A DNA stretch of 64,000 nucleotides from Algorimicrobium echini (lineage in GTDB: Bacteria > Bacteroidota > Bacteroidia > Flavobacteriales > Flavobacteriaceae), in contig NZ_FOVN01000003.1 of NCBI RefSeq assembly GCF_900115185.1, forward strand, positions 148,511-212,510. Direction: 5' to 3'. Made by a program: the position numbers and the translations under genes. The notes below the pieces were generated by a model that was given only the letters and a program-made list of their open reading frames with translations, made no database searches and had not been told where the DNA came from. Below, piece by piece: positions 28,965-51,509 of the stretch. The number at the start of each line of letters is the position of its first letter. Positions within the stretch are counted from its first letter, which is position 1.

Positions 28965-28980
28965 TATGATAATTATCATA
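28965..28980 (+). promoter_or_regulatory. FNR-like palindrome of hemN
   Basis: TATGATAATTATCATA is a perfect 16-bp palindrome with the core TGAT-N4-ATCA. Its centre (28972.5) is 29.5 bp before the TAGTTTTG element. Confidence 0.8.
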
Positions 28981-29001
28981 TTTTTTATTCTAAAAAGACG
29001 C

Positions 29002-29009
29002 TAGTTTTG
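29002..29009 (+). promoter_or_regulatory. -7 element TAGTTTTG of hemN
   Basis: Exact TAnnTTTG match; predicted start near 29014, leader about 14 nt. Together with the palindrome it forms a class II activator layout. Confidence 0.7.
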
Positions 29010-29027
29010 CCTCATAATTAGTTAGGT

Positions 29028-30392
29028 ATGACAAAATTATTAGTAAACAAATATAATGTAGCTGGTCCTAGGTACACCAGCTATCCAACCGTTCCGTATT
29101 GGGATGACAATACATTTTCAATTGCTAAATGGAAAACAAGCTTACAGAAATCTTTTAATGAGAGTAATGATAATGAAGGTATTAGTTTATACATTCATTT
29201 ACCGTTTTGTGAAAGCTTATGTACCTTTTGTGGTTGCAACAAACGGATTACAACACGGCACGAAGTAGAATCGCCTTACATTAAATATGTGTTAAAAGAA
29301 TGGCAATTATACGTGCAAGAATTAGGACATACTCCTTACATTAAAGAATTGCATTTAGGAGGCGGGACACCTACTTTTTTTTCACCTAAAAATTTGGAAC
29401 GTTTAATTAATGGCATTTTCTCAATAGCTGAAAAGGCTGAAAATTATGAATTTAGTTTTGAAGGCCACCCAAATAATACCACCAAAGCACATTTGGAAAC
29501 CCTCTATAATTTAGGGTTTCGTCGTGTTAGTTTTGGTGTTCAGGATTATAATGAAACTGTACAAAAGGCTATTCATAGAATTCAGCCGTTTGAAAATGTA
29601 AAACGTGTAACCGAAGAAGCACGCGAAATAGGATACTCATCCATTAGTCATGATATTATTTTTGGTTTACCATTTCAAACGGAAGAACATGTAGCAGAAA
29701 CTATAAAAAAAACCAAACAATTAATGCCAGACCGCATTGCATTTTATAGTTATGCTCATGTACCATGGATAAAAGGTAATGGGCAACGTGGTTTTAAAGA
29801 TACCGATTTGCCTTCAGCTGAAAGCAAACGCAAACAATATGAATTAGGGAAAGAGCAATTGGATGCCTGTGGATATGTTGAAATAGGTATGGATCATTTC
29901 GCTCTAAAAACCGATAGTTTATACCTCGCTACAGAGACTAAAAATTTACATCGAAATTTTATGGGTTATACAGCTAGTAAAACCCAAATAATGGTTGGTT
30001 TGGGTGTTTCTGCTATAAGTGATAGTTGGTACGGTTTTGCGCAGAATGAAAAGAAAATTGAAGACTATTATAAGCGTTTAGATGCTAATGAGATTCCAGT
30101 TTTTAGAGGTCATATTTTAAATGCTGAAGATTTAATTATTAGACGTCATATTTTAAATCTTATGTGCCACTTTGAAACGAGCTGGAGTTTGAATACCAAT
30201 TATTTTAAAGAATTGCCAGATGTCTTAATTCAATTAAAAGAATTAGAAAAAGATGGCTTAATACAAATAAATACACATGCAATTACAGTTACTGAAAACG
30301 GCAGGCCATATGTTAGAAATGTATGCATGGCTTTTGATTTGTTGCTTCAACGAAAAAAACCAGAAGCACAATTGTTTTCAATGACCATTTAA
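29028..30392 (+). CDS. hemN: oxygen-independent coproporphyrinogen III oxidase
   Basis: A 454-residue radical SAM enzyme: the [4Fe-4S] motif is CESLCTFCGC (C-x3-C-x2-C), followed by HLGGGTPTFF, and the HemN C-terminal domain is present. It converts coproporphyrinogen III to protoporphyrinogen IX without O2, for haem synthesis at low oxygen. The length equals that of true HemN rather than of the shorter HemW. The FNR-like palindrome upstream fits anaerobic induction. Confidence 0.95.
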   Translation: MTKLLVNKYNVAGPRYTSYPTVPYWDDNTFSIAKWKTSLQKSFNESNDNEGISLYIHLPFCESLCTFCGCNKRITTRHEVESPYIKYVLKEWQLYVQELGHTPYIKELHLGGGTPTFFSPKNLERLINGIFSIAEKAENYEFSFEGHPNNTTKAHLETLYNLGFRRVSFGVQDYNETVQKAIHRIQPFENVKRVTEEAREIGYSSISHDIIFGLPFQTEEHVAETIKKTKQLMPDRIAFYSYAHVPWIKGNGQRGFKDTDLPSAESKRKQYELGKEQLDACGYVEIGMDHFALKTDSLYLATETKNLHRNFMGYTASKTQIMVGLGVSAISDSWYGFAQNEKKIEDYYKRLDANEIPVFRGHILNAEDLIIRRHILNLMCHFETSWSLNTNYFKELPDVLIQLKELEKDGLIQINTHAITVTENGRPYVRNVCMAFDLLLQRKKPEAQLFSMTI

Positions 30393-30470
30393 GAAAAAAT
30401 ATAGAATTAATAATCAATCCAAAAAAACGTTCAATCGGTAGCTTGTCGTTTTAATTTAAATTTTAATATC

Positions 30471-31301
30471 ATGAAAAAAATAATTGTACCCATAGATTTC
30501 TCTGAATATTCTGAATATGCATTAGAAACTGCAGCCATTTTGGCGAAAAAGAATCATGCTGAAATTTTAGCTTTACACATGCTTGAATTATCTGAAGCTA
30601 TTTTAACCAAAGGTTCTGACAGTCAAATGGAATCATTATTTTTTATGAAATTAGCCGAAAAACGCTTTAACGAGTTTTTAGATAAAGCGTATTTAGACAA
30701 CATTAAAGTAACGCCTATTGTAAAGCATTTTAAGGTATTTAGTGAAGTTAATGAAGTCGCTAAAGAAAACCAAGCAGATTTGGTAGTTATGGGATCTCAA
30801 GGTAGCAGTGGTATTAAAGAATACTTTGTTGGATCAAACACAGAAAAGGTTGTACGCTATTCAGATATTCCAGTTCTAGTTATAAAACATAACCCAATTT
30901 TAACCGAGTTTGAAACCATAGTCTTTGCATCCGATTTTTCTGATGATGCTGTGTCTGCATACCTAAAAGCTAAAGACATGTGTAACACCCTACAAGCCAA
31001 TATGAATTTGGTTTATGTTAATTTACCAGGAGAAAGCTTTAAAAGTACAGCAGAAATGGAAGGTAAGGTAGTTACCTTCCTTAAAAAAGCGGAAGGTAAT
31101 CTGGAGAGCCTTTCAAAAGTAACCTATGTTAGTGATTATACAGTAGAACAAGGAATTTCAAATTTCGCAAATCTTATTGGTGCAGATTTGGTTGCTGTGG
31201 CAACGCATGGAAGAAAAGGTATTGCCCATTTTTTTGAAGGAAGTATTTCCGAGGATGTCGCTAATCATTCAACCCTACCAGTCATGACATTTAAAATTTA
31301 A
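30471..31301 (+). CDS. universal stress protein with two UspA domains
   Basis: A 276-residue protein with two UspA domains in tandem: KKIIVPIDFSEYSEYAL at 1-150 with VVMGSQGSSG, and a second from ~150 with IVFASDFSDDAV and VAVATHGRKG. USPs often respond to hypoxia or respiratory arrest. It follows hemN by 78 bp with no visible promoter of its own, so it may be cotranscribed. Confidence 0.92.
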   Translation: MKKIIVPIDFSEYSEYALETAAILAKKNHAEILALHMLELSEAILTKGSDSQMESLFFMKLAEKRFNEFLDKAYLDNIKVTPIVKHFKVFSEVNEVAKENQADLVVMGSQGSSGIKEYFVGSNTEKVVRYSDIPVLVIKHNPILTEFETIVFASDFSDDAVSAYLKAKDMCNTLQANMNLVYVNLPGESFKSTAEMEGKVVTFLKKAEGNLESLSKVTYVSDYTVEQGISNFANLIGADLVAVATHGRKGIAHFFEGSISEDVANHSTLPVMTFKI

Positions 31302-31432: not shown

Positions 31433-31450
31433 ATATGATAATTGTCATAT
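31433..31450 (+). promoter_or_regulatory. FNR-like palindrome of the nos operon
   Basis: ATATGATAATTGTCATAT, one mismatch from perfect symmetry; centre 31441.5 is 29.5 bp before TATTTTTG. Confidence 0.8.
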
Positions 31451-31470: not shown

Positions 31471-31478
31471 TATTTTTG
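31471..31478 (+). promoter_or_regulatory. -7 element TATTTTTG of the nos operon
   Basis: Exact TAnnTTTG match; predicted start near 31483, which lies after two upstream in-frame ATGs (31467, 31479) and so fixes the cytochrome c start at 31500. Confidence 0.7.
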
Positions 31479-31499: not shown

Positions 31500-32003
31500 A
31501 TGAGAACATCACTAAAATTAATGACGGTATTATTCGCAATTGCTTTAATAGGTTGTGGCGGAAAAGAAGAGAAGAAGAAAGAATCTTTCTCTTATGAAAA
31601 GAAAACACCAAAAACAGAAACTACAACTAAAAAAGAAGAAGCGGTGCCTGCCTCAAAAAAAGTTGATTTAACTAACAAAGGCGTTGGGCCAATTACTTCT
31701 GTAACATTGGATGCCGAGATAAATCAAGCCATGGCAGACCAAGGTTCAGAAATCTACAAAAAAATGTGTACTGCTTGCCATAGAGTGGACAAGAAATTTA
31801 TTGGACCAGCACCAACAGGTATTTTGGAGCGTAGAACACCAGAATGGGTAATGAACATGATTTTAGCTCCAGAAAAAATGGTGAAAGAAGATCCGTTAGC
31901 AAAAGAATTGTTAATGGAATTTAATGGGTCTCCAATGGCTAATCAAAATCTCACAGAAGAAGAAGCAAGAGCCGTTTTAGAATATTTCAGAACTTTAAAA
32001 TAA
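31500..32003 (+). CDS. monohaem c-type cytochrome lipoprotein of the nos operon
   Basis: A 167-residue lipoprotein (lipobox LIGC) with a Lys/Glu-rich linker and one class I cytochrome c domain: haem motif CTACH and distal Met in GSPMANQN. It is the likely electron donor to NosZ. The longer frame from 31467 would put coding sequence before the predicted transcript start. It heads the nos operon and ends 7 bp before the fasciclin gene. Confidence 0.9.
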   Translation: MRTSLKLMTVLFAIALIGCGGKEEKKKESFSYEKKTPKTETTTKKEEAVPASKKVDLTNKGVGPITSVTLDAEINQAMADQGSEIYKKMCTACHRVDKKFIGPAPTGILERRTPEWVMNMILAPEKMVKEDPLAKELLMEFNGSPMANQNLTEEEARAVLEYFRTLK

Positions 32004-32611: not shown

Positions 32612-34570
32612 ATGAAAAACAGATTTAAAATATCAATGGGATTGATGGTTGCGGCACTTGCCTTTACAAGTTGCAACAATTCAACGCAAACATCAGATAA
32701 GGGTGCATTAGGTTCTAGTGCAGCCGAAAAAGTATATGTTGCACCTGGTGAGCATGATTCACATTATGCATTTATGTCAGGTGGTTACAGCGGAAATTTA
32801 ACCGTTTATGGGTTGCCTTCTGGTCGTATGTTTAAGGAAATTCCAGTATTTTCTCAATTTCCAACTAATGGCTATGGATACTCTGAAGAAACCAAGCCAA
32901 TGTTAGAAACATCTTATGGTTTTGTACCGTGGGATGATGCACACCATCCAGATATTTCGCAAACAAATGGTGAGTTAGATGGTCGTTGGATTTTTATTAA
33001 TGGTAACAATACACCACGTATTGCTAGAATTAGCTTAAAAACATTTGAAACGGAAGAAATAATTGAGGTTCCAAACAGTGCAGGTAACCACAGTTCATCT
33101 TTTATTACTGAAAACACCGAATATGTGGTTGCAGGAACACGTTTTTCAGTTCCAGTACCACAAAGAGATATGTCTATAAAAGACTACAAAGGGAACTTTA
33201 AAGGAGCTTTAACTTTTATAACCGTTGATCCAGAACATGGACATATGGATATTAAATTCCAAGTGCTTATGCCTGGTTTTAATTACGATTTATCGCACCC
33301 AGGACGTGGAAAATCTCACGGATGGTTCTTCTTTACTACCTATAACACGGAAGAAGCAAATAGTTTGTTAGAAGTAAATGCATCTCAAAACGATAAAGAT
33401 TTTATTGCAGCTATTAACTGGAAAAAAATTGAAGAGTATGTAAATAATGGTGGTGGAACCATGATGCCAACAGAGTATGCACACAATATACACAGCGATG
33501 AAACACATACTGCTACATCAACTATGAAAAAAGAAGTTCGTGTGGTTAATCCTGCCGATGTTCCTGGTGCTGTTTATTTATTACCGACACCAAAATCCCC
33601 TCATGGTTGTGACGTAGATCCTTCAGGTGAGTACATTGTTGGTAACGGTAAATTATCAGCAAACTTAACCGTTCACTCGTTTACAAAAATGCTTGATGCT
33701 ATAGAAAACAAAAAGTTTGATGGTGATGCATATGGTATACCTGTTTTAAACTTTGAAGATGTGTTAGCTGGTTCAGTAGAACAGCCAGGTTTAGGCCCTC
33801 TACATACAGAATTTGATGGTCAAGGAAATGCCTACACAACTTTCTTTATCTCTTCTGAAGTTGTAAAATGGAAATTAGGAACTTGGGAGGTGTTGGATAG
33901 AAAACCAACTTATTATTCTGTTGGTCACTTAACAATTCCTGGTGGAAACTCCAGAAAACCATTTGGTAAATATATGTTTGCCATGAATAAAATTACAAAA
34001 GACCGTTATTTACCAACTGGTCCAGAAATGGAGCATTCAGCACAATTATATGATATTTCAGGTGATAAAATGGAACTTTTATATGATTTCCCTACACATG
34101 GTGAACCACATTATGCCGCATCTATTCCTGCAGAAATTATTAAAGATAAATCAGAGAAATTCTTTAAGTTAACGGAAAATCAACACCCTAGAAAAGCATT
34201 GAGTGATGCTGATACCAAGGTTGTACGTGATGGTAAAAATGTTCATGTGTACATGACTATGATTCGTAGTCACTTCTCACCTGATAATATTGAAGGTGTT
34301 AAAGTAGGTGACAAAGTATTTTTCCATATAACCAATTTAGAGCAAGATTTTGATGTTCCTCATGGATTTGCAATGATAGGTGCTAATAATGCTGAATTGT
34401 TAATTATGCCAGGCCAAACAAGAACCTTAACATGGGAACCTAAAAAAGTAGGTGTATGGCCATTTTATTGTACAGATTTCTGTTCTGCCTTACACCAAGA
34501 AATGCAAGGATATATTCGTGTATCTCCAGCCGATTCTAATATAGAATTGTCTTGGTCTCTAGGTGAATAA
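32612..34570 (+). CDS. nosZ: nitrous oxide reductase, clade II-like, lipoprotein-type signal
   Basis: A 652-residue N2O reductase. A Sec signal with lipobox AFTSC (Cys21) replaces the Tat signal of clade I enzymes. The N-terminal propeller carries the Cu_Z histidines (DAHHPD and others) and the C-terminal cupredoxin holds Cu_A ligands C620, C624, H628 and M631 (FYCTDFCSALHQEM). The position that is Trp in clade I (CxWxC) is Asp here. It reduces N2O to N2 in the periplasm, probably membrane-anchored. Confidence 0.96.
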   Translation: MKNRFKISMGLMVAALAFTSCNNSTQTSDKGALGSSAAEKVYVAPGEHDSHYAFMSGGYSGNLTVYGLPSGRMFKEIPVFSQFPTNGYGYSEETKPMLETSYGFVPWDDAHHPDISQTNGELDGRWIFINGNNTPRIARISLKTFETEEIIEVPNSAGNHSSSFITENTEYVVAGTRFSVPVPQRDMSIKDYKGNFKGALTFITVDPEHGHMDIKFQVLMPGFNYDLSHPGRGKSHGWFFFTTYNTEEANSLLEVNASQNDKDFIAAINWKKIEEYVNNGGGTMMPTEYAHNIHSDETHTATSTMKKEVRVVNPADVPGAVYLLPTPKSPHGCDVDPSGEYIVGNGKLSANLTVHSFTKMLDAIENKKFDGDAYGIPVLNFEDVLAGSVEQPGLGPLHTEFDGQGNAYTTFFISSEVVKWKLGTWEVLDRKPTYYSVGHLTIPGGNSRKPFGKYMFAMNKITKDRYLPTGPEMEHSAQLYDISGDKMELLYDFPTHGEPHYAASIPAEIIKDKSEKFFKLTENQHPRKALSDADTKVVRDGKNVHVYMTMIRSHFSPDNIEGVKVGDKVFFHITNLEQDFDVPHGFAMIGANNAELLIMPGQTRTLTWEPKKVGVWPFYCTDFCSALHQEMQGYIRVSPADSNIELSWSLGE

Positions 34571-35358: not shown

Positions 35359-35790
35359 ATGAAACATTTTATTTTAATACTCCTTCTGGGTTTTGCCAGT
35401 ACATCATGTACGGTAAAGTCAGATCCAATCAATTACGGTCAAGATGCTTGTCATTACTGCAAAATGACCATTGTAGATAAAGTACATGCAGCGGAAATTG
35501 TAACTCAAAAAGCTAAAGTTTATAAGTTTGATGCTTCAGAATGTATGGTTAATTTTATGGATGAATTTAATAAGGCGGACATTCAATTATACTTAACCAA
35601 TCACTATAACGAACCTGAAACGTTAATTGACGCTACCCAGGCCACATTTTTGATAAGCAAAAATATTCCAAGCCCAATGGGTGCTTTTTTAACAGCTTTT
35701 AAAAATAAGCAAGAAGCTGAAACTGTTCAATCAGAACAAGGTGGTGATATCTATACATGGGATGCTTTATTGCGCCATTTGCAAGAGTAA
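35359..35790 (+). CDS. nosL: NosL copper chaperone lipoprotein
   Basis: A 143-residue lipoprotein (lipobox STSC) with the NosL copper motif CHYCKM (C-x2-C-x-M) and the rest of the domain (YKFDASECMVNFMDEF). NosL binds Cu(I) and delivers copper for the maturation of NosZ. Confidence 0.93.
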   Translation: MKHFILILLLGFASTSCTVKSDPINYGQDACHYCKMTIVDKVHAAEIVTQKAKVYKFDASECMVNFMDEFNKADIQLYLTNHYNEPETLIDATQATFLISKNIPSPMGAFLTAFKNKQEAETVQSEQGGDIYTWDALLRHLQE

Positions 35791-35824
35791 TTCTTAATTC
35801 ATTTAAACACTAAAAACAATTGTG

Positions 35825-37072
35825 ATGCCATTAAAAAAGCACCATATACTTTCGGCTATACTCATAATAGTTCTGTCAAACACGCTTTTTTCTCAAAATA
35901 TACGTGTCTGTAAAACCTGCGATATTAAAACGCTTCAAGGAGGAATTAATGCCGCTCAAGAACATGATACGATTATAATTGAAAAAGGTACATACAAAGA
36001 AATAGATGTACTCGTTAATAAACCGTTAACCATAATTGGTAAGGACTATCCGGTTATTGATGGTGAAATGAAAGGCGAAATCATTACAATAACAGCAGAT
36101 AGTGTCACGGTTGACGGTCTTTTTATTAAAAATGTGGGAACCAGTTACACATCTGATTATGCAGCTATTCGCTTAAAACGCGTTGAGAATTTTGTTATAA
36201 AAAATCTAGTTTTAGAAAAACTATTTTTTGGTATTTATGTTGAAAAATCTAATAATGGTAAGGTATTTCATAACAAAATAATTGGTGATGCCGAAGAAGA
36301 ATATAACTCGGGTAACGGTATTCAGCTTTGGTACAGTAATAATATAGAAATTGAACATAATTTTGTTCAACGGGTTCGAGACGGCATTTATTTAGAATTT
36401 TCAGATAACTGTATCATTAAAAACAATGTTAGTTCTCATAATGTGCGTTACGGCTTGCATTTTATGTTTTCTAACGATGATATTTATCAGGATAACTTAT
36501 TCGAAAAAAACGGTGCAGGAGTAGCGGTTATGTTTTCTAAAAAAATAAAAATGTATAATAATATTTTTAGGGAAAATTGGGGAACAGCGTCTTATGGTTT
36601 ATTACTAAAGGAAATAAACGATGCTGAAATAATGTACAATACCTTTGAAGAAAATACTATAGGTATTAATACTGAAGGCTCCAACCGCATTAAATACATA
36701 CATAATAACTTTATCAATAATGGTTGGGCTATCAAAGTGCTAGGTGCTTGCTATACCAATACTTTTACAGGAAATAATTTTTTGTATAATTCTTTTGATA
36801 TGGCTTATAATAGTAAGGTGAATGATAATGAATTTGATGGTAATTACTGGAGTGAATATACGGGTTATGATTTAGATAAAAATGGCTTTGGCGATGTGCC
36901 TTACAGACCCGTAAAACTCTTTTCATACATTGTGAATAGAACGCCTGAAACAATTATTTTATTACGAAGTTTGTTTATTGATATTATTGATTTTTCTGAA
37001 AAAGTATCGCCTGTATTTACACCAGATAATTTACTGGATAATAACCCTAAAATTAAAAGAATAACATGGTAA
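35825..37072 (+). CDS. nosD: NosD copper-processing protein
   Basis: A 415-residue periplasmic protein: signal peptide (ending TLFSQ), then a right-handed beta-helix of parallel repeats rich in Asn (NNVSSHNVRYGLHFMFSND and similar). NosD works with NosF and NosY to mature the Cu_Z centre of NosZ. A GTG one codon upstream (35822) is open; ATG preferred. The end overlaps nosF by 7 bp. Confidence 0.94.
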   Translation: MPLKKHHILSAILIIVLSNTLFSQNIRVCKTCDIKTLQGGINAAQEHDTIIIEKGTYKEIDVLVNKPLTIIGKDYPVIDGEMKGEIITITADSVTVDGLFIKNVGTSYTSDYAAIRLKRVENFVIKNLVLEKLFFGIYVEKSNNGKVFHNKIIGDAEEEYNSGNGIQLWYSNNIEIEHNFVQRVRDGIYLEFSDNCIIKNNVSSHNVRYGLHFMFSNDDIYQDNLFEKNGAGVAVMFSKKIKMYNNIFRENWGTASYGLLLKEINDAEIMYNTFEENTIGINTEGSNRIKYIHNNFINNGWAIKVLGACYTNTFTGNNFLYNSFDMAYNSKVNDNEFDGNYWSEYTGYDLDKNGFGDVPYRPVKLFSYIVNRTPETIILLRSLFIDIIDFSEKVSPVFTPDNLLDNNPKIKRITW

Positions 37073-37773
37073 GTGTTCAAGATCTGCATAAAAAATTCGG
37101 TAAAAACAAAGTTTTAACTGGACTTGATTTAGAAATTGGTGAAGGTGGTATTTTTGCCGTATTAGGGCCAAACGGCTCTGGTAAAACCACACTGATAAAG
37201 TCTATTCTAGGTATGGTAATTCCAGATAAAGGAACTATTTCTATTCATGGAAAATCCATAAAAAAGGATTCTAATTATAGAAAACAAATAGACTATTTAC
37301 CACAAATAGCTAATTTTCCAAGTAACTTAAAAGTAAAGGAGCTTATTACCATGATTAAAGACTTACGTGGAAATTCTACCAATGAAGCGTCTTTAATAGA
37401 ACTATTTAAATTAGAGCCGTTTATTGATAAAAAACTTGGACAGCTGTCTGGTGGAACCAAACAAAAAGTGAATATTTTACTAACCTTTATGTTTGACAGT
37501 CCTTTAGTTATTTTAGATGAGCCCACAACAGGTTTAGATCCTATTGCGCTTATCAGATTAAAAGACTTAATTAAAGCCGAAAAAGCAAAAGGTAAAACGG
37601 TTTTAATTACATCACATATTATGAGTTTTGTGGAAGAAATTTCTGATGAAATTGTTTTCCTATTAGAAGGGAAAATTTATTTTAAAGGCACCATTCCTGC
37701 CCTTAAAACACAAACCAATCAACCAGATTTAGAACACGCCATTGCATCCATTTTAACTACAAATCATGTTTAA
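37066..37773 (+). CDS. nosF: NosF ABC transporter ATP-binding protein
   Basis: A 235-residue ABC ATPase with Walker A GPNGSGKTT, signature LSGGTKQK, Walker B LVILDEPTTGLDP and the H-loop His in LITSHIM. It forms the NosDFY maturation complex; overlaps nosD (7 bp) and nosY (8 bp). Confidence 0.94.
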   Translation: MVSVQDLHKKFGKNKVLTGLDLEIGEGGIFAVLGPNGSGKTTLIKSILGMVIPDKGTISIHGKSIKKDSNYRKQIDYLPQIANFPSNLKVKELITMIKDLRGNSTNEASLIELFKLEPFIDKKLGQLSGGTKQKVNILLTFMFDSPLVILDEPTTGLDPIALIRLKDLIKAEKAKGKTVLITSHIMSFVEEISDEIVFLLEGKIYFKGTIPALKTQTNQPDLEHAIASILTTNHV

Positions 37774-39005: not shown

Positions 39006-39022
39006 AGTGATTTATATCATGT
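39006..39022 (+). promoter_or_regulatory. FNR-like palindrome of the copper-acquisition set
   Basis: Core TGAT-TTAT-ATCA at 39008-39019; centre 39013.5 is 29.5 bp before TAAATTTG. The outer arms (AG/TG) fit less well than in the other copies. Confidence 0.7.
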
Positions 39023-39042: not shown

Positions 39043-39050
39043 TAAATTTG
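39043..39050 (+). promoter_or_regulatory. -7 element TAAATTTG of the copper-acquisition set
   Basis: Exact TAnnTTTG match. The predicted transcript start (about 39055) coincides with the A of the ATG, so the mRNA may be leaderless. Confidence 0.65.
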
Positions 39051-42784: not shown

Positions 42785-43486
42785 TTAATGACAGTCTATT
42801 TCATTTGAAACTGTTTCTACAATTGGAGCAGGAGAGAGGTAAGGGATACCGAGACCCAAACCACGAAGAATAAATAATAATCCAATAATGACAACAAAAA
42901 TAGGAATGGCTTTTTGGATGCGTTGTTTTATGGTAGCATTTAGAAACTTTCCTAAATAAATAGCAGTCGTCATTAAAGGAATAGTACCCAATCCAAATAA
43001 AGACATATAAAGTGCGCCTTGAAACGCATTTGCACTAGCTAAAGAACCAAAAACAGCCATATATACCAATCCACAAGGTAAAAATCCATTTAGAAAACCA
43101 ATGGTTAAAAAAGTATCAGCTGTTTTCTTTTTAAGGGCTGCGCCCAAACCAGATTTAATTTTAGAAATAACCTTATGAAGCGGTTTAGAAAAATTATACT
43201 TATTAAATGTTTTGTAGGGAATAAGTATAGCAACGATCATTAATACACCAATTATAATTGAGAGTTGTTGTTGAAGTCCAAAGATATATAAGCTTTTTCC
43301 AATTAGTCCAAAAACAAGACCAATGAGACTGTAAGCAAGAATTCTACCTACATGATACAGAGTGATTTGGGTTATTTTTCGGGTGGAATTACTACGGTCA
43401 ACAGGCAGCATAAAAGCTATAGGACCACACATACCAACGCAGTGAAAACTACCTAGTAATCCTAAAACAAGTGCTGACCATAACAT
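42785..43486 (-). CDS. SafE/TauE-like membrane protein of the cco operon
   Basis: A 233-residue protein with six membrane helices. The first helix carries a metal-type motif GSFHCVGMCGP (C-x3-C), and a later one has NGFLPCGLVYMA. This COG2836 type regularly ends cbb3 oxidase operons and is thought to move copper or another metal for oxidase assembly rather than sulfite. It is the last gene, 1 bp after ccoH. Confidence 0.88.
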   Translation of the reverse strand: MLWSALVLGLLGSFHCVGMCGPIAFMLPVDRSNSTRKITQITLYHVGRILAYSLIGLVFGLIGKSLYIFGLQQQLSIIIGVLMIVAILIPYKTFNKYNFSKPLHKVISKIKSGLGAALKKKTADTFLTIGFLNGFLPCGLVYMAVFGSLASANAFQGALYMSLFGLGTIPLMTTAIYLGKFLNATIKQRIQKAIPIFVVIIGLLFILRGLGLGIPYLSPAPIVETVSNEIDCH

Positions 43487-43487
43487 G

Positions 43488-43949
43488 CTAATACGTTATT
43501 TCTTTTTTGAAGCGATAGGAATTTCCCTTATATTGCCAATCTACAGTAAGGTTCCAACGACCACCTAACAAACGATTGTCAGGTATGAGCAAATTTTGAT
43601 TTGATAAAGAAATAGGTGTTTCAAAATCAAATTGTTTATTAGATGGTCTATAAAGGAACACTTTTCCGGTTATATCTGAAATGTTTAACGAATCTGGAAA
43701 AATGATAAGAATACCTTCTTCGGTTTGTTTTAAACGAATGTTTTGAGAAAGTTTATTTCCCTTTTGTTCGCGTTCCATATTACCTTGAACTTTCAATTCT
43801 TGTTGGTAATAATCTTCGGTTACTAAATCATGCTGGTACTTATCATTTGTACTCATTTTGATTACAAAAAACATGATGAAGGATATAAATCCAATCATAG
43901 CCAATACCATTCCTGTTCCCCAGTTTATTTTCATCTGTTTTGTTCCCAC
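43488..43949 (-). CDS. ccoH: FixH/CcoH family protein
   Basis: A 153-residue protein with one N-terminal membrane helix (~8-28) and a periplasmic FixH domain (DYYQQELKVQGNMEREQ is typical; GGRWNLTVDWQYKGNSYRF closes it). CcoH stays with the cbb3 oxidase and helps its assembly. It follows ccoG by 43 bp. Confidence 0.9.
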   Translation of the reverse strand: MGTKQMKINWGTGMVLAMIGFISFIMFFVIKMSTNDKYQHDLVTEDYYQQELKVQGNMEREQKGNKLSQNIRLKQTEEGILIIFPDSLNISDITGKVFLYRPSNKQFDFETPISLSNQNLLIPDNRLLGGRWNLTVDWQYKGNSYRFKKEITY

Positions 43950-43992
43950 TAAAGTGGGAGTCTCTTTTTAGTTAATACTTTTAAAATCTAAA

Positions 43993-45417
43993 TTATCTAT
44001 AACTGCGAGGGCCTAAAAAGTTAACCGTTGTGGTTTCAATAAGGTCATCATTGCTATAAACTTCAATCATTAATTTATTCTTATCTCCACTTAAAGCTTT
44101 CTGATCTATTTCAATAAATAAGGTTCCTTCAGATAGCCCTTGAGGAGGAACGTTAAACGTTTGTGAATTTGAAACAACATTTATTGTCCCTTCATATTTA
44201 CGTAGTTTGAAAGTAATGTTTTCTATTTCTTTAGTTGTTTTATTTACTAATTTGTAGGTAAATACATTACTAATAATAGAGCCTTCTTTATGTTCGTATA
44301 GCTGGCCAGGTAATCTAAATACGTTGGCTTCAACATCATTTCGAAGTAATAATAATCCCGTTAAAACACCTACTAAAATAACCAAAACAGCTATATAACC
44401 TTTTAATCGAGGTGTTAATTTAAATTTTTCTTTTTTCTCAATCTCATCTTCACTAGCATAGCGTATTAAGCCTTTTGGAAGATTTATACTTTCCATGATA
44501 TGATCGCATTCATCAATACAAGCAGTACAGTTTACGCATTCTAGTTGCGTTCCGTTTCTAATGTCAATACCAGTTGGACAAACATGAACACATTGCAAAC
44601 AATCTATACAATCGCCATATCCTAGAGCTTCACGGTCTTCATTTTTTCGGAATTTTTTTCTACCATTTTCAGATTCTCCACGTTTATGGTCGTATGCTAC
44701 TACAATCGATTTGTTATCTAAAAGAACACCTTGTAGTCGGCCATAAGGACAGGCAATAATACAGACCTGTTCTCTAAACCAGGCAAAGACAAAATAGAAA
44801 ACAGCCGTAAAAATTAACAATGGAAATAAAGTTCCTAAATGTTCTGTTGGCCCTTCTTTAATGTAAAGTAGTAGTTTATCGCTACCAATTAAATATGCTA
44901 AAAATATATTAGCAATTAAAAATGAAATAACCAGAAATATAAACCATTTAAGTAATCTTTTTTTTATTTTTTCAGCATTCCATTCTTGCTTGTCTAATTT
45001 TCGTTGTTTGTTTCTATCACCATCAATCCAATATTCAATTCGTCTAAAAACCATTTCCAAGAAAATAGTTTGTGGGCAAATCCAACCACAAAATATGCGA
45101 CCAAAACCAACAGTAAATAAGGCAATAAAAATAACGCCTATTAACATGGAAATAACAAAAAGGTAAAAATCTTGTGGCCAAAAAGGAAATCCAAAAATAT
45201 TAAACCGCCTTTCTAATATGTTAAACATTAAAAATTGGTTACCATTAATTTTTATAAATGGCGCAGCAAATAGGAACGCTAATAGTATATAGCTAACAAT
45301 TTTGCGCCATTCATAATAGCGACCACTTGGCTTTTTAGGGTATACCCAGGCTCGTTTACCTTGGTCATCTAATGTGCCAATCGTGTCTCTAAACGATTCG
45401 TTTTCCGGACTTTCCAC
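43993..45417 (-). CDS. ccoG: CcoG/FixG cytochrome c oxidase accessory protein
   Basis: A 474-residue membrane protein with five helices, an NapH-like CGWICPQT motif and ACPYGR, and a soluble 2x[4Fe-4S] ferredoxin region (CIDCLQCVHVCPTG and CVNCTACIDECD, near 265-300), then an Ig-like periplasmic domain. CcoG reduces Cu(II) to Cu(I) for insertion into the cbb3 oxidase. It follows ccoP by 26 bp. Confidence 0.95.
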   Translation of the reverse strand: MESPENESFRDTIGTLDDQGKRAWVYPKKPSGRYYEWRKIVSYILLAFLFAAPFIKINGNQFLMFNILERRFNIFGFPFWPQDFYLFVISMLIGVIFIALFTVGFGRIFCGWICPQTIFLEMVFRRIEYWIDGDRNKQRKLDKQEWNAEKIKKRLLKWFIFLVISFLIANIFLAYLIGSDKLLLYIKEGPTEHLGTLFPLLIFTAVFYFVFAWFREQVCIIACPYGRLQGVLLDNKSIVVAYDHKRGESENGRKKFRKNEDREALGYGDCIDCLQCVHVCPTGIDIRNGTQLECVNCTACIDECDHIMESINLPKGLIRYASEDEIEKKEKFKLTPRLKGYIAVLVILVGVLTGLLLLRNDVEANVFRLPGQLYEHKEGSIISNVFTYKLVNKTTKEIENITFKLRKYEGTINVVSNSQTFNVPPQGLSEGTLFIEIDQKALSGDKNKLMIEVYSNDDLIETTTVNFLGPRSYR

Positions 45418-45443
45418 CTTTGTTTGTTTTTAAGTTACCTAAC

Positions 45444-46394
45444 TTAATTCTCAATAGATATGACTGAATCTGTTTTAACCTCTATAGCCTCTGTTGGAAT
45501 ATCTTCTGCTGGCGCATTTTCGTCCACCCAAATATCACCTTCAGCTTCTTTTGGGTTAGCAGGTGTTGTCCCTTGAAACGTTAAAACATAGCTTGAAACT
45601 TGAGCCATTTCTGCAGGTTTTAAACTTTGTTTCCAAGAAATCATACCTTTACCATTTCTACCACCTTCAGATACGGTTTTAAATACATTTTTAATACCAC
45701 CACCTAAAATCCAATACTTATCGGTTAGATTTGGGCCAATACCACCACCACCATCAGCCATATGACAAGCGACGCAATTAGTTTCAAAAATAGCCTGACC
45801 TGCTTTAATGTCTGCAGCACTGGTTAAGACTTCTACGGTATTGAAATCCACTAAATCTTTAGCATTTTTCTTGTACTCTTCGATTGAAATAGCAGCTTGT
45901 GCGTATTCTGTTTCTAATTCATCGTATTGATTTTTACCATCAAAAACATGATATCTTACTAAATATACGGCTGCAAAAACAATAGATGCATAAAAACTAT
46001 AGATCCACCAAGGTGGTAAGTTATTATCTAATTCACGAATACCATCATAGTTGTGATCTAGGATAATATCATGCTCTTCTTCCATTGGTTTTGAACCTAA
46101 TAATTTTTTGTAAGTTTCCTGAAACCAAGTAATAACTTTTGGTGTTTTAACTTTTCTAGCATGATAACGTGCTTGACCTTCAGCATCTAGGCTTTGGTAT
46201 AGAATATTGTCCATTGAACTAACAATGGCTTCAATACCGATTAATAATATTAAAACAAATATTAAGAATAGCATAACTAATGGTTGCTCAATAAAAGCTG
46301 GTTGGTTACCAGAATCAATAAAGTATTCTGCCAATCCAGCAATTAAGAAAAATATAACGGGTATCCTTATCCAAGCTGGAATTAATTGTCTCAT
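45444..46394 (-). CDS. ccoP: cbb3 oxidase subunit CcoP (single haem motif)
   Basis: A 316-residue protein with two N-terminal membrane helices (~7-28, 39-58), a soluble linker with the CcoP-type DGIRELDNNLPPWW, a third helix and one cytochrome c domain (CVACH, Met in KGMISWK). Proteobacterial CcoP has two CXXCH motifs; only one is present here. It carries electrons to the CcoN active site. The start overlaps ccoQ by 4 bp. Confidence 0.93.
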   Translation of the reverse strand: MRQLIPAWIRIPVIFFLIAGLAEYFIDSGNQPAFIEQPLVMLFLIFVLILLIGIEAIVSSMDNILYQSLDAEGQARYHARKVKTPKVITWFQETYKKLLGSKPMEEEHDIILDHNYDGIRELDNNLPPWWIYSFYASIVFAAVYLVRYHVFDGKNQYDELETEYAQAAISIEEYKKNAKDLVDFNTVEVLTSAADIKAGQAIFETNCVACHMADGGGGIGPNLTDKYWILGGGIKNVFKTVSEGGRNGKGMISWKQSLKPAEMAQVSSYVLTFQGTTPANPKEAEGDIWVDENAPAEDIPTEAIEVKTDSVISIEN

Positions 46395-46579
46395 AGTTCT
46401 TCGTGGTTTTGGTTGTTATCTAAAGGGATATTACTAACAGTATCTATATAATCTTTTTTAGCGGTTACAACCCACCAAAATAAGACTACAAAAAAGATGA
46501 AAAATATGAGTAAAGAGATAATTGGATAAATCTCAATGCCCGAAATACTCTCCATATGATTTTTTACAAACTTTAACAT
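46391..46579 (-). CDS. ccoQ: cbb3 oxidase subunit CcoQ
   Basis: A 62-residue protein with one membrane helix (IISLLIFFIFFVVLFWWVV) and a short charged tail. Size, build and position between ccoNO and ccoP identify CcoQ, which stabilises the complex. Its last bases overlap the ccoP start. Confidence 0.88.
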   Translation of the reverse strand: MLKFVKNHMESISGIEIYPIISLLIFFIFFVVLFWWVVTAKKDYIDTVSNIPLDNNQNHEEL

Positions 46580-46597
46580 AGTTTCTTTTATTAAGGG

Positions 46598-48778
46598 TTA
46601 TTCTTCTAAATCGGTCACGTTTATATCTGTTCCTAAACGTTGTAAATAAGCAATAATGGCGACTATTTCACGATTGCGCATTTCAACAAAATCTTCACCA
46701 CCTGCAGCTTTATCGGCTTCATAGGTGGAAGCAAAATCTGGATCAGCATATAAATTCTTTTCAATTTGAGTACCTTGATCTAACATGCTCTGTTGTGCAT
46801 TTGCTATATCTTCTTCCGTGTATGGAACACCTAATGTTACCATTACTTCCATTTTTGCCTCGGTACTCGATTTGTCAAGTTCGTTTAAAATCATCCATTT
46901 ATAAGATGGCATGATGGAACCTGAAGAGGTGCTTTGTGGATCATACATATGGTTAAAATGCCAATTATCAGAATATTTACCACCAACACGGTGTAAATCT
47001 GGTCCTGTACGTTTACTTCCCCAAAGGAACGGATGATCATAAACAAACTCTCCGGCTTTCGAGTAATCACCATAGCGTTCTACTTCACTTCTAAAAGGTC
47101 TTACCATTTGCGAGTGGCAACCAACACATCCTTCACGGATATAAATATCACGTCCTTCTAATTCTAAAGGCGTATAAGGTTTAACACTACTAATTGTTGG
47201 TATATTAGATTTTACCATAATAGTTGGTACAATTTGTACAATACCACCTATTAAAATAGCAATAGTAGCATAAATTGTTAACTTGATTGGTTTTCTTTCC
47301 AACCACGTGTGCCATCCTTCACCTCCAACACGGCTTTTAGAAACATTTTGTAGTGCAGCAGCTTCAGCTAATTCGTCTGTTACTTTACTACCATTTTTAA
47401 TGGTAACAATAACATTGTAAACCAGCACTAACATTCCTGTTAAATATAGGGTTCCACCTATTGCACGCATCCAATACATTGGCATAATTTCAGTAACTGT
47501 TTCTAAAAAGTTACCATAAACTAAAGTACCGTCTGGATTAAATTGTTTCCACATACTTGCTTGTGTAAAACCAGCAACATACATAGGTAAAGCATACATA
47601 ATAATACCTAATGTTCCAATCCAGAAATGGAAATTGGCTAAACCAATAGAGAATAATTTTGTTTTAAATAAACGAGGTACTAACCAGTAAATCATACCAA
47701 AGGTTAGAAAACCATTCCATGCTAATGCACCTACGTGCACGTGAGCAATAATCCAATCTGTAAAGTGTCCAATAGCATTTACGTTTTTCAATGATAGCAT
47801 TGGGCCTTCAAAAGTAGCCATACCGTATCCAGTAATAGCGACTACCATGAATTTTAAAACAGGATCTGTACGAACTTTATCCCAAGCACCACGTAATGTT
47901 AATAAACCATTAATCATACCACCCCAAGAAGGCATTAATAACATAACTGAAAATGCGACACCTAAATTTTGTGCCCATTCAGGAAGTGCTGTATAAAGTA
48001 AGTGATGCGGTCCAGCCCAGATGTAAATGAAAATTAAAGACCAGAAGTGTATAATGGATAAACGATAGGAGTAAACAGGTCTGTTAGCTGCTTTTGGTAC
48101 AAAATAATACATTAAACCTAAAAAAGGTGTTGTTAGGAAAAATGCCACCGCATTATGTCCATACCACCATTGTACCAATGCATCTTGCACGCCAGCGTAA
48201 ACCGAGTAGCTTTTCATTCCTGTAAAACTAACAGGTAATTCTAAACTATTAAATATGTGAAGAACAGCAACAGTAACAAATGTGGCAATATAAAACCATA
48301 TAGCTACATATAAATGGCGCTGTCTTCGCTTAATCATGGTTCCGATAAGGTTGGCACCAAAAACAACCCAAATTAATGCGATTGCAATATCGAATGGCCA
48401 TTCTAATTCGGCATATTCTTTAGAGGTAGAAAACCCTAATGGTAACGTAATTGCCGCACCTACAATAATTAATTGCCAACCCCAAAAGTTGATTTTGCTT
48501 AAAAGATCGCTATACATTCTAGCTTTTAATAAACGCTGTGTGGAATAGTATACACCCGCAAAAATGGCGTTTCCAACGAAAGCGAAAATAACAGCATTTG
48601 TGTGCAAAGGTCTTAATCTACCAAAGCTTAACCAGGAAATACCATCTGTTAAGTTGGGAAATAAAAACATAAATGCTAAAAGTAAGCCTACAAGCATACC
48701 TACAACTCCCCAAAGTATGGTAGCGTAGAGGAAATTTTTAACGATCTTATTGTCGTAATAGAATTGTTGTACTTCCAT
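46598..48778 (-). CDS. ccoN: fused cbb3 oxidase subunit CcoN-CcoO
   Basis: A 726-residue fusion. Residues 1-~480 are the haem-copper CcoN subunit with 12 or more helices and the haem/Cu_B histidines (LHTNAVIF, WWYGHNAVAFFLT, HHLLY, HVHVGAL). After one further helix (~500-520) comes the CcoO cytochrome c domain with EGCVGCHSQMVRPF and PSYKWM. It reduces O2 with very high affinity and pumps protons. The fusion is usual in Bacteroidetes. Confidence 0.95.
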   Translation of the reverse strand: MEVQQFYYDNKIVKNFLYATILWGVVGMLVGLLLAFMFLFPNLTDGISWLSFGRLRPLHTNAVIFAFVGNAIFAGVYYSTQRLLKARMYSDLLSKINFWGWQLIIVGAAITLPLGFSTSKEYAELEWPFDIAIALIWVVFGANLIGTMIKRRQRHLYVAIWFYIATFVTVAVLHIFNSLELPVSFTGMKSYSVYAGVQDALVQWWYGHNAVAFFLTTPFLGLMYYFVPKAANRPVYSYRLSIIHFWSLIFIYIWAGPHHLLYTALPEWAQNLGVAFSVMLLMPSWGGMINGLLTLRGAWDKVRTDPVLKFMVVAITGYGMATFEGPMLSLKNVNAIGHFTDWIIAHVHVGALAWNGFLTFGMIYWLVPRLFKTKLFSIGLANFHFWIGTLGIIMYALPMYVAGFTQASMWKQFNPDGTLVYGNFLETVTEIMPMYWMRAIGGTLYLTGMLVLVYNVIVTIKNGSKVTDELAEAAALQNVSKSRVGGEGWHTWLERKPIKLTIYATIAILIGGIVQIVPTIMVKSNIPTISSVKPYTPLELEGRDIYIREGCVGCHSQMVRPFRSEVERYGDYSKAGEFVYDHPFLWGSKRTGPDLHRVGGKYSDNWHFNHMYDPQSTSSGSIMPSYKWMILNELDKSSTEAKMEVMVTLGVPYTEEDIANAQQSMLDQGTQIEKNLYADPDFASTYEADKAAGGEDFVEMRNREIVAIIAYLQRLGTDINVTDLEE

Positions 48779-48783
48779 AATTT

Positions 48784-48972
48784 TTAATTAGTCTTTTTGG
48801 TTTTAATTGTTTGTTCTGGGTTTTGTTTAACGAGCTCGTCTTCAAATAGCATTCTAACTGATGGTGTGTAATCATCATCAAACTGACCACTTTTTACCGC
48901 TAAAATAAAAGCGACAAAAAAGCCAATAGCTACTACAATACTGATACTCAATAATATGTAAATAACACTCAT
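48784..48972 (-). CDS. ccoS: CcoS cbb3 oxidase maturation protein
   Basis: A 62-residue protein with one N-terminal helix (MSVIYILLSISIVVAIGFF) and the conserved GQFDDDYTP stretch (here KSGQFDDDYTPSVRMLFED). CcoS is needed for cofactor insertion into CcoN. It is the first gene of the operon, 5 bp before ccoNO, under a palindrome-bearing promoter. Confidence 0.93.
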   Translation of the reverse strand: MSVIYILLSISIVVAIGFFVAFILAVKSGQFDDDYTPSVRMLFEDELVKQNPEQTIKTKKTN

Positions 48973-48992: not shown

Positions 48993-49000
48993 CAAAAATA
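48993..49000 (-). promoter_or_regulatory. -7 element (TATTTTTG) of the cco operon
   Basis: Plus strand CAAAAATA, an exact minus-strand TAnnTTTG; predicted start near 48988, leader about 16 nt. Confidence 0.7.
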
Positions 49001-49020: not shown

Positions 49021-49038
49021 ATATGATAAAAATCATAT
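49021..49038 (-). promoter_or_regulatory. FNR-like palindrome of the cco operon
   Basis: ATATGATAAAAATCATAT; apart from the A4 spacer it is a perfect palindrome. The centre (49029.5) lies 29.5 bp before the -7 element on the minus strand. It sits in the 80-bp gap after the copper ATPase gene. Confidence 0.8.
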
Positions 49039-49052: not shown

Positions 49053-51425
49053 TCATTCTAATTTCCTACCTATAATGTTGGTTGCTACTGTGGTAAAAAC
49101 AACAATACTAATGGAGCTTAACGGCATTAAAATTGCTGCTATAACTGGTTCTAATTGACCTGTAACAGCAAAATATAAACCGATAATATTGTAAAAGAAT
49201 GATAACACAAAACTCCACTTAATAATTTTAATAGCTTGTTTGGAAGCACTTATATAGCGAAATAATTGATTAAATTTTGAAGCATCTAAAATAGCATCAC
49301 AAGCTGGAGAAAAAACATTTACATTTTCTGATATAGCGATGCCAACTTCACTTTGAGCTAATGCACCTGCATCATTTAATCCGTCTCCAATCATTAAAAC
49401 TTTAGCACCTTCAGACTGATGATATTTTATATAGTCTAATTTATCATCAGGTTTTTGATTAAATATTAATTTCGTTTTACTGGGTAATAGTTTCTTTAAG
49501 TTTTCTAGTTCACCCGAATTATCACCAGAGAGGATTACTAAATCATAATTGCTTTTTAAAGAGTTAAATAATTTTGAAAGCCCTTTTCTATAGCTATTAT
49601 AGAAGGTATATTTTCCTTTGTATTTATTATTACTACTAATATGAACGGTTGTATTTAAAATAGACACATCCTGCTCAAGACCAACAAAGCTAGCTGAACC
49701 AATTTTCATACTATCGTTTTGGTGAATACTTTCAATACCTTTCCCTAAATGTTCTTCAAAATGATTAAGTGTAATTATATCGTGCTCATCAAGAATGTCA
49801 TAAAGTGTGCGGCTTAAAGGGTGATTAGAACCCCTTAATGTGTTTTTTAATAATAATTCTTCCGAGGCGTTTAATGCATCGCCATGATAAATAGCAGAAC
49901 TTTGTTTATTAGATGTAATGGTTCCTGTTTTATCAAAAATAATAGTATTAATAGATGCTAATTGTTCTATAACAGAAGCGTTTTTTAAGTAGAACTTTAG
50001 CTTTCCAAAAATTCGTAATAAATTACCTAGTGTAAATGGAGCAGAAAGAGCAATAGCGCAAGGGCATGCAATAATTAAAACTGCGGTAAAAACATTCATG
50101 GCTTTAGTTGAATCCACAACTAACCAAAAGGTTGTTGCAATAAAAGCAATGCTTAAAACGGCAATAGTAAATCGTTTACTAATAGTATTTGTTAAAGTTG
50201 TAAAACCATCCTCTTTGTTCTTATTAAAAACATCGTTACTCCATAATTGCGTTAAATAACTTTGTTCAACCGATTTTAAGGCCTCCATCTCCATTACACC
50301 AGAAGTTTGTTTGCCTCCAGCAAAAAGCTTGTCGCCTGAAAGTTTTGTAACAGCATCAGACTCACCTGTTACAAAACTATAGTCAATTTTTGCTTTGCCA
50401 TTAATTAAGATGCCATCTACAGGAATGAGTTCTTGGTTTCTAATAAGCAGTCTGTCCCCTTTTTTAATGTCATAAACCTGAATAGGTGTTTCTATGCCTT
50501 CCGAAATTTTAGTTATTGCAATTGGGAAATAGGATTTGTAATCGCGCTCAAACGATAAAAATGAATAGGTTTTTTGTTGAAAAAATTTCCCTAATAGTAA
50601 AAAGAAAACTAAACCCGTTAAACTATCAAAAAAACCAGAACCAATATCTAAAATAATTTCTACTGTACTTCTTACAAAAAGAACGGTAAGTCCTAAAGCT
50701 ATAGGAACATCAATATTAAGTAGTCCGGATCGTAATCCTTTATAAGCTGATGTAAAATAATCACGTCCAGCATAAAACACAACCGGTAAGGAAAATGCAA
50801 ACATGAGCCATCTAAAAAGGTGTTTGTATTGTTCAATCCAGAATTCGCCAACTTCAAAATATTCTGGAAATGACAAAAACATGACATTTCCAAATGCAAA
50901 ACCTGCTATCCCAAGTTTGTAGATTAAGGAGCGATTAACATGTTCTTTTCCGGTTTTAAAATCATCAAGTGAAATATAAGGTTCATATCCAATAGCACTT
51001 AAAAGTAAAACCACCTCTTTTAAGGAAAAATTTGTAGCCTTATAGGTTATACGCACATTCTTTTTTCCAAAATTTACTTGTGAAGCTGTAATATTACTAT
51101 TAAGCTTATTTAGATTTTCTAAAATCCAAATGCAAGAACTACAATGTATATGTGGAATGTACAAGGTTGTAATCTGAATGTGTCCATCATTAAACTCCGT
51201 TAGTTTTTCAATAATGTTTTCTTTGGAAAGAAAATCGTATTTACCTTGAATTTCTTTTGGAGCAGAACCAGGAGCTGCTTGTAAATCGTAATAACAGGTT
51301 AAATCGTTCTCTGAAAAAATTTCATAAACCGTTTTACAGCCATTACAACAAAATAGTTTTTCATCGAAACTAATTTGTTCTGTATCGCATACATCACCAC
51401 AGTGGAAACAGTTATGTTGTTCCAT
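49053..51425 (-). CDS. ccoI: CcoI-type copper-translocating P-type ATPase
   Basis: A 790-residue P1B ATPase. A Cys-rich N-terminal metal-binding region (CFHCGDVC, FCCNGC, residues 6-30) is followed by an HMA domain with CSSC (C95, C98), eight membrane helices including the CPC ion site (ACPCAIAL), the phosphorylation motif DKTGT, an HP motif in SNHPLS and GDGLNDA. CcoI-type pumps send Cu(I) to the periplasmic side for oxidase assembly. It has its own palindrome upstream. Confidence 0.93.
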   Translation of the reverse strand: MEQHNCFHCGDVCDTEQISFDEKLFCCNGCKTVYEIFSENDLTCYYDLQAAPGSAPKEIQGKYDFLSKENIIEKLTEFNDGHIQITTLYIPHIHCSSCIWILENLNKLNSNITASQVNFGKKNVRITYKATNFSLKEVVLLLSAIGYEPYISLDDFKTGKEHVNRSLIYKLGIAGFAFGNVMFLSFPEYFEVGEFWIEQYKHLFRWLMFAFSLPVVFYAGRDYFTSAYKGLRSGLLNIDVPIALGLTVLFVRSTVEIILDIGSGFFDSLTGLVFFLLLGKFFQQKTYSFLSFERDYKSYFPIAITKISEGIETPIQVYDIKKGDRLLIRNQELIPVDGILINGKAKIDYSFVTGESDAVTKLSGDKLFAGGKQTSGVMEMEALKSVEQSYLTQLWSNDVFNKNKEDGFTTLTNTISKRFTIAVLSIAFIATTFWLVVDSTKAMNVFTAVLIIACPCAIALSAPFTLGNLLRIFGKLKFYLKNASVIEQLASINTIIFDKTGTITSNKQSSAIYHGDALNASEELLLKNTLRGSNHPLSRTLYDILDEHDIITLNHFEEHLGKGIESIHQNDSMKIGSASFVGLEQDVSILNTTVHISSNNKYKGKYTFYNSYRKGLSKLFNSLKSNYDLVILSGDNSGELENLKKLLPSKTKLIFNQKPDDKLDYIKYHQSEGAKVLMIGDGLNDAGALAQSEVGIAISENVNVFSPACDAILDASKFNQLFRYISASKQAIKIIKWSFVLSFFYNIIGLYFAVTGQLEPVIAAILMPLSSISIVVFTTVATNIIGRKLE

Positions 51426-51450
51426 AAAATTTGCTCATTTATACCTATTG

Positions 51451-51458
51451 CAAAGGTA
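51451..51458 (-). promoter_or_regulatory. -7 element (TACCTTTG) of the copper ATPase gene
   Basis: Plus strand CAAAGGTA, an exact minus-strand TAnnTTTG; the palindrome centre is 28.5 bp upstream, one base short of the spacing at the other sites. Confidence 0.6.
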
Positions 51459-51477
51459 GAATATAAGCATTCTTTTA

Positions 51478-51495
51478 ATATGATTTTTATCATGT
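51478..51495. promoter_or_regulatory. FNR-like palindrome between copper ATPase and regulator genes
   Basis: ATATGATTTTTATCATGT, core TGAT-TTTT-ATCA at 51481-51492. For the ATPase it lies near -40.5 (activation); for the regulator gene it is centred near -27.5, between the -33 and -7 regions, where a bound protein should repress. Confidence 0.75.
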
Positions 51496-51501
51496 TTTCC
51501 G

Positions 51502-51509
51502 TATTTTTG
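51502..51509 (+). promoter_or_regulatory. -7 element TATTTTTG of the FNR-like regulator gene
   Basis: Exact TAnnTTTG match 22 bp before the ATG; overlapped upstream by the palindrome. Confidence 0.6.

Follow-up and report, generated by a model that had tools for sequence, protein, structure and literature searches.

A predicted CRP/FNR regulon with a fixed operator-promoter spacing joins nitrous oxide reductase, cbb3 oxidase and haem synthesis genes in Algorimicrobium echini

Palindromes and promoters

In a stretch of 64,000 nucleotides of the Algorimicrobium echini genome (contig NZ_FOVN01000003.1, positions 148,511 to 212,510; hereafter the window), five palindromes of the type ATGAT-N4-ATCAT stand before hemN, the nos operon for nitrous oxide (N2O) reduction, a copper-type gene set, the cco operon for cbb3 oxidase, and ccoI, the last one being common to ccoI and the divergent gene of a CRP/FNR protein. 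We consider it likely that they are the operators of one low-oxygen regulon and are read by this neighbouring protein, which would act as a class II activator centred at position -41.5 of the target promoters.

The palindromes were located at 28965-28980 (TATGATAATTATCATA, hemN), 31434-31449 (TATGATAATTGTCATA, nos operon; one mismatch to TGAT-N4-ATCA) and 39006-39021 (AGTGATTTATATCATG, copper-type set) on the forward strand, at 49022-49037 (TATGATAAAAATCATA, cco operon) on the reverse strand, and at 51479-51494 (TATGATTTTTATCATG, ccoI on the reverse and the regulator gene on the forward strand). All five had been reported in the original prediction, with three starts (31433, 49021 and 51478) given one base early. 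The gap was defined as the number of bases between ATCA and TAnnTTTG, a gap of 23 corresponding to a palindrome centre 29.5 bases before the T of the box. As had been claimed, the gap is constant at four promoters, with an exact TAnnTTTG 23 bases past ATCA at hemN (TAGTTTTG, 29002-29009, forward strand; predicted transcript start near 29014), the nos operon (TATTTTTG, 31471-31478, forward strand; predicted start near 31483), the copper-type set (TAAATTTG, 39043-39050, forward strand; predicted start 39055) and the cco operon (TATTTTTG, 48993-49000, reverse strand). The fifth copy is indeed one base off toward ccoI (gap 22; TACCTTTG, 51451-51458, reverse strand). It would serve two divergent promoters, and its gap to the regulator's own -7 element (TATTTTTG, 51502-51509, forward strand) is 9.

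The positions of the predicted transcript starts follow from a start-site map of a flavobacterium, in which TAnnTTTG lies at -12 to -5 (PMC9723704). As the box spans -12 to -5, a gap of 23 places the operator centre at -41.5, the class II position, in agreement with the value of about -41.5 predicted earlier for these putative promoters.

Three more exact copies of TGAT-N4-ATCA occur in the window (23024, 36478 and 58922), two of them (23024 and 36478) within reading frames and none with an exact box at gaps 8-38.

Excess of one spacing in the genome and its relatives

Chance explains the constant spacing poorly, as had been argued when the palindromes were noted. The window holds four gap-23 pairs, compared with a mean of 0.035 and a maximum of 1 in 200 dinucleotide shuffles. 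When the 3.31-Mb genome was searched with TGA-N6-TCA-N{8,38}-TAnnTTTG, 59 matches were obtained (35 with the reversed control), of which 12 have gap 23 while the other 30 spacings average 1.57 (Poisson P ~1e-7); the eight gap-23 matches outside the window by themselves give P ~2e-4. The same search in related genomes, proposed with the original prediction, gave a similar picture: among the 136 matches listed, from 16 of 40 genomes searched, 41 have gap 23 (26/61 in congeners, 15/75 in the others), compared with 3.2 per other gap and 7 at the next spacing. At 80 named regulator loci there were 24 exact matches at gap 23, with gap 9 as runner-up (6 matches). Chance spacing was rejected on the basis of these shuffles and gap histograms. 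The motif and its spacing are thus not at background frequency before unrelated genes; the excess is genome-wide, and many of the genes are functionally related.

For closer inspection, 100 gap-23 sites from 22 genomes were fetched, namely every one of the 26 listed in five congeners plus 74 of those listed for the family. Two of them repeat one duplicated stretch of genome G141, and three have no open reading frame (ORF) of 60 residues within 350 bases. Ninety-eight sites are intergenic and two lie inside frames, versus 5 intergenic and 20 inside frames for the 25 own-genome matches at other gaps that were fetched, scored with slightly different ORF cut-offs.

A phylum-wide sample of 395 genomes was searched for the exact gap-23 pattern, a search that misses one-mismatch operators such as that of nos; the pattern was found in 112 of them. 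The window's family (41 genomes) accounts for 164 sites, compared with a single match to the reversed control, and sites are present in 39/41 of its genomes. A hand count for f32, the other family with the largest sample (86 genomes), gave 6 sites.

Operator and promoter sequence

The base before TGAT, free to vary in the 100 sites, is A in 74, C in 18, G in 8 and T in none, and the base after ATCA, equally free, is T in 80, G in 13, C in 4 and A in 3. Because the flanking bases are mostly A before TGAT and T after ATCA, the consensus was written as ATGAT-N4-ATCAT. The earlier label of an FNR-like palindrome therefore fits the TGAT-N4-ATCA core but not the FNR box, and the site was judged to be neither a plain FNR nor a plain DNR box: T before TGAT is absent from all 100 sites, and TTGAT-N4-ATCAA needs an A after ATCA, which only three sites have. 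Residue T190 of the neighbouring protein aligns with V208 of FNR, which we take to be the CRP-180 position. Of 81 close relatives, 78 have T there, and base 3 of the site is mostly A. At this flanking position FNR and DNR boxes have T and CRP has G, and CRP residue 180 correlates with base 3 of the site (PMC1274295). T190 together with A at base 3 is consistent with a further pairing under that rule.

A conserved TTG at -33 is not apparent in the 100 putative promoters. G was found at -33 in 6/100, and in 11/100 a TTG begins at some position between -38 and -31, counts that refer to the gap-23 sites only.

It might be held that A+T-rich promoter DNA and common descent produce the constant gap of 23 as a side effect, with no regulator behind it, given that the sequence is A+T-rich and that some of the sites are orthologous copies. 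We find this hardly credible, since the shuffles give 0.035 pairs instead of four, the gap is common to unrelated promoters within one genome, the gap-23 sites are intergenic far more often than matches at other gaps, and T is excluded at an unconstrained flanking base.

The CRP/FNR protein

The gene beside the fifth palindrome (51531-52208, forward strand) encodes a protein of 225 residues (P0001) with a beta-roll of the cyclic nucleotide monophosphate (cNMP) type, a Crp-type helix-turn-helix (PF00027 and PF13545, both above cut-off) and the recognition helix GTATESAIR. It had been described as FNR-like, which is borne out for three of the four cluster cysteines, but one defining cysteine is absent. 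In the alignment with Escherichia coli FNR (21% identity), C4, C7 and C106 correspond to C20, C23 and C122, N13 stands at the position of C29, presumably a cluster ligand of FNR, and C53 stands at A70. The curated FNR profile NF008365 was matched with 71.4 bits, below its cut-off of 228.

C4, C7, C53 and C106 are invariant in 81/81 close relatives. Among 30 order-level rows, C7, C53 and C106 are present in 30/30 and C4 in 28/30, the two misses reflecting start-codon choice; a cysteine at the C29 position occurs in 1/30 (L087). Part of the set is lost in some paralogues. In FNR itself, three cysteines lie in a loop of residues 17-29 (PMC12937710). The closest named relatives of the protein, at 70-72% identity, are from Subsaximicrobium and Gelidibacter, on which basis the window was assigned to Flavobacteriaceae. 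Its predicted structure (pLDDT, a residue confidence score, 82.7) matches 2gau from Porphyromonas gingivalis, the nearest solved structure, with a template modelling (TM) score of 0.83 and Aliivibrio fischeri FNR (5e44) with 0.77.

In 43/66 loci the operator next to the regulator gene has a TAnnTTT[GA] of that gene at gap 9. This spacing centres the operator near -27.5, which suggests that the regulator represses its own gene there. In 10/66 loci (L146, L147, L155, L156, L161, L165, L167, L172, L174 and L181, including Arenibacter, Allomuricauda, Flagellimonas, Croceivirga and Maribacter) the gene has a gap-23 box instead, suggestive of self-activation, and the sign of self-regulation may possibly have changed in the Allomuricauda-Maribacter group.

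Target genes in the window and its genome

Behind the first operator lies hemN (29028-30392, forward strand), for oxygen-independent coproporphyrinogen III oxidase (TIGR00538, 443.9 bits, above cut-off). The nos operon, on the same strand, opens with a cytochrome c-like lipoprotein gene, here called nosC (31500-32003; lipoprotein assignment by eye). Its start was set to the in-frame ATG at 31500, because the TTG of the listed ORF (31467) precedes the predicted transcript start; this ATG also opens a lipoprotein-type signal and is the better fit. It is followed by nosZ for a Sec-dependent (clade II) N2O reductase (32612-34570; TIGR04246, 944 bits) and by nosL, nosD, an ABC ATPase gene and a gene for a 260-residue protein without an NCBIfam match (35359-38548).

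The copper-type set (39055-42548, forward strand) encodes a protein of 132 residues, a YtkA-like protein and a TonB-dependent receptor. Its predicted transcript start, 39055, is the A of the first ATG, which would mean a leaderless transcript or a later start. Copper uptake had been named among the targets; the gap-23 site is there, but the copper label is tentative because the receptor, nearest to the TonB-copper profile (143.8 bits), scores below its cut-off of 472.

On the reverse strand, a small ORF of 62 residues, CcoS-like by eye and position (48784-48972), lies between the cco promoter and ccoN and is followed by a ccoNO fusion, ccoP, ccoG, ccoH/FixH and a DsbD_2-type permease gene (42785-48778). 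The gene before the fifth palindrome encodes a heavy-metal P-type ATPase of the CcoI type (49053-51425, reverse strand; named by position).

Nine of the 12 gap-23 sites of the genome precede genes, four in the window and five elsewhere. Those elsewhere stand before norC-norB, nirK (with SUMF1-like and SCO1-like genes), nadA-nadB, an OmpW-like protein gene and a thioredoxin-like protein gene, all named by eye from translations. A further site, which overlaps a frame's end, precedes an HPF-like gene by 28 bases (L037:2181-2223). One regulon spanning N2O reductase, cbb3 oxidase and HemN, as originally proposed, is supported by these sites, and its predicted membership also takes in nirK, norCB, nadAB, ompW and others.

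Two neighbouring genes were also noted. A Cu-Zn SodC-like gene (28291-28890; below curated cut-offs) is divergent from hemN across the first operator. The regulator gene is followed by a gene for a Sortilin/Vps10-type protein of 1079 residues (52265-55504), with a similar gene in 12/80 regulator loci.

Conservation of the targets

The recurrent gene families downstream of the 100 fetched sites, named in part from Pfam matches, are ccoN (10), hemN (9), a YceI-like cluster (6), nirK, the 132-residue protein of the copper-type set and an outer-membrane beta-barrel protein (5 each), nosC, HPF, MlaE and a PAS protein (4 each), OmpW and an MBL-rhodanese protein (3 each), a thioredoxin-like protein (2), and nadA, norC and the regulator (1 each). 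Further genes behind sites encode PEPCK, Usp, fumarase, 2-oxoacid:ferredoxin oxidoreductase, a globin, a 4Fe-4S protein and carbonic anhydrase, and many sites precede singleton genes without an evident link. In most cases ccoN lies about 212 bases past its site, which leaves room for ccoS. For the HPF-like (ribosome hibernation) gene, a gap-23 site about 29 bases upstream was seen in four congener loci (L190, L196, L199 and L208) as well as in the own genome.

Of the 80 named loci, taken as up to 10 kb either side of the regulator gene, 76 include ccoI and 70 include ccoN. A palindrome with at most two mismatches stands at gap 23 from an exact box before ccoN in 46/70; no other gap from 16 to 30 was found in the 70, and the exact box is absent in 24. 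Before ccoI a palindrome with at most one mismatch is present in 68/77, with NAnnTTTG at gap 23 in 65/68. The gap of 22 in the window is thus an exception among relatives, where the spacing is 23.

Outside the family, gap-23 sites number 9 and 7 in two genomes of f61. In the loci seen, most of these sites are intergenic, and the genes behind them do not resemble those of the flavobacterial regulon. Three sites were found in f65 (site loci of the two families: L346-L348, L353-L355, L358-L360, L362, L363, L365, L366, L368 and L369).

Discussion

The arrangement described above suggests the following mechanism. The CRP/FNR protein would bind ATGAT-N4-ATCAT as a dimer; at gap 23 it would be centred at -41.5 of a Bacteroidota sigma-A promoter whose -7 box (TAnnTTTG) is good but which seems to have no conserved TTG at -33, and would activate transcription in the class II manner by replacing the -33 contact. 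At the regulator's own promoter, where the operator is centred near -27.5 and thus inside the core, binding would repress. The likely signal is oxygen, sensed through a putative [4Fe-4S] cluster on an altered cysteine set, namely C4, C7 and C106 (C20, C23 and C122 of FNR) with C53 in place of C29 of FNR. In Flavobacterium psychrophilum, cbb3 oxidase and haem enzymes are increased when oxygen is limiting (PMC9723704), which is in line with the predicted regulon.

Several observations weigh against this explanation. Two of the 12 gap-23 sites of the genome lie within reading frames, where they are probably due to chance. The exact TAnnTTTG at gap 23 precedes ccoI in 1/77 loci, the first base of the box rarely being T. 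None of the seven hemN genes of the named loci has a gap-23 box, and among the matches listed on re-inspection there was no site; hemN is therefore not a target everywhere, and our confidence was lowered slightly by this result. The presumed proximity of C53 and C106 is deduced from general jelly-roll topology, and in the predicted structure residues 1-5 have a pLDDT below 50 and there is no cofactor. One homologue from family f5, perhaps Weeksellaceae by our guess, has none of the four cysteines (L330). Sites in f5 and f61 precede other genes: of the 30 loci inspected in f5, f61, f65 and f49 (of 34 sites), one matches the reference gene set, with 32% identity to the copper-set protein, for which reason breadth beyond the window's family is not claimed. 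Finally, regulator and sites co-occur imperfectly: a close orthologue of the regulator (E below 1e-50) is absent from 7/41 family genomes, which average 3.0 sites versus 4.2 in those that have one; as the seven keep sites, another regulator can read the operator.

Such a regulator may be a fusion of a receiver domain and a CRP-type protein of about 350 residues (L326, L327, L328 and L338), with a recognition helix of the same type (ATES, ATET or ASES followed by LIR). Genomes G091 and G392, which have the fusion and no close orthologue, retain gap-23 sites upstream of hemN and nosC, and G091 retains one at ccoN as well; in both, a Usp-like gene with a gap-23 site adjoins the fusion gene. Since these genomes keep the sites with the fusion instead of the window-type protein, operator and spacing seem to outlast any one sensor. 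In A. echini, a search that covered three HTH_Crp_2 matches found no second protein with the regulator's recognition helix and no receiver-CRP fusion. Of the other two matches, one is CRP-like, has a different helix and is encoded next to an MBL-type gene, and the other is an Lrp-type protein below cut-off. That another CRP/FNR protein such as the fusion is the main reader, with the window protein merely its neighbour, would agree with the shared helix type and with G091 and G392, but there is no fusion among the matches of this genome, and the window-type protein shares its locus with the operator and cco genes in most of the 80 loci; we regard it as distinctly unlikely.

A stronger competitor, although still on the unlikely side, keeps the same regulon and changes the signal: the four cysteines could form a thiol switch or bind zinc or haem, or the protein could respond to nitric oxide. 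The targets nirK, norCB and nos are tied to nitrogen oxides, DNR and NnrR of the same superfamily control such genes (PMC1274295), and one of the four FNR ligands is absent. On the other hand, cco, ccoI and hemN are genes linked to oxygen, three of the FNR ligands have counterparts at equivalent positions, and C53 is invariant along with them in the close relatives.

With FNR of gammaproteobacteria the window protein shares the CRP/FNR fold, the equivalents of C20, C23 and C122, and Glu209 and Arg213 of the recognition helix; FNR class II promoters likewise have the operator centre at -41.5 and include respiratory and haem targets. It differs in its half-site (ATGAT, where FNR has TTGAT), in having N13, C53, T190 and I194 where FNR has C29, A70, V208 and S212, and in its target promoters, which are of the Bacteroidota TAnnTTTG kind and appear to lack a TTG at -33. 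DNR and NnrR resemble it as single CRP/FNR regulators controlling nir, nor and nos, but the boxes given for them (CTTGAT-N4-ATCAAG and ctTTGcg-N4-cgCAAag; PMC1274295) differ from the operator described here, and the window protein is further set apart by its N-terminal cysteine pair and by a predicted regulon that adds cbb3 oxidase and hemN. HcpR, PgRsp and CrpPg of Porphyromonas and MalR of Bacteroides are likewise Bacteroidota members of the superfamily; however, haem binding is described for HcpR and PgRsp and a link to carbon for MalR, unlike our proposal, and the HcpR2 motif, GTAAC-N4-GTTAC, is unlike our operator. The Bacillus-type FNR illustrates that the cluster position can move within the superfamily, although its cluster lies in the C-terminal DNA-binding domain and not, as proposed here, near the N-terminus (PMC12937710). 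A metagenome study assigned CRP/FNR homologues of Flavobacteriales to carbon sensing, a different proposal (PMC8510549). In the literature searched, most of it outside subscription journals, no description was found of the regulon, the operator, the cysteine set or flavobacterial nos induction.

More tentatively, and with somewhat more doubt than belief, we suggest that the Bacteroidota have an operator class of their own: ATGAT-N4-ATCAT, read through Thr (or Ser) at the CRP-180 position and held at a constant -41.5 in TAnnTTTG promoters that lack a -33 box, with interchangeable sensors, namely the iron-sulphur type with C4, C7, C53 and C106, a cysteine-free type and the two-component receiver fusion.

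Flavobacteria are abundant, and some of them carry clade II N2O reductase. The single operator, spacing rule and candidate regulator presented here can be searched for in any flavobacterial genome. The predicted regulon would link N2O reduction to cbb3 oxidase, to haem and possibly to copper supply, and suggests a possible mode of activation for a phylum in which the main sigma factor relies on different boxes. With its shifted cysteines, the protein poses an iron-sulphur oxygen-sensor question that is open to point mutants. A shared low-oxygen switch appears to have been kept in flavobacteria despite changes in the protein reading it.

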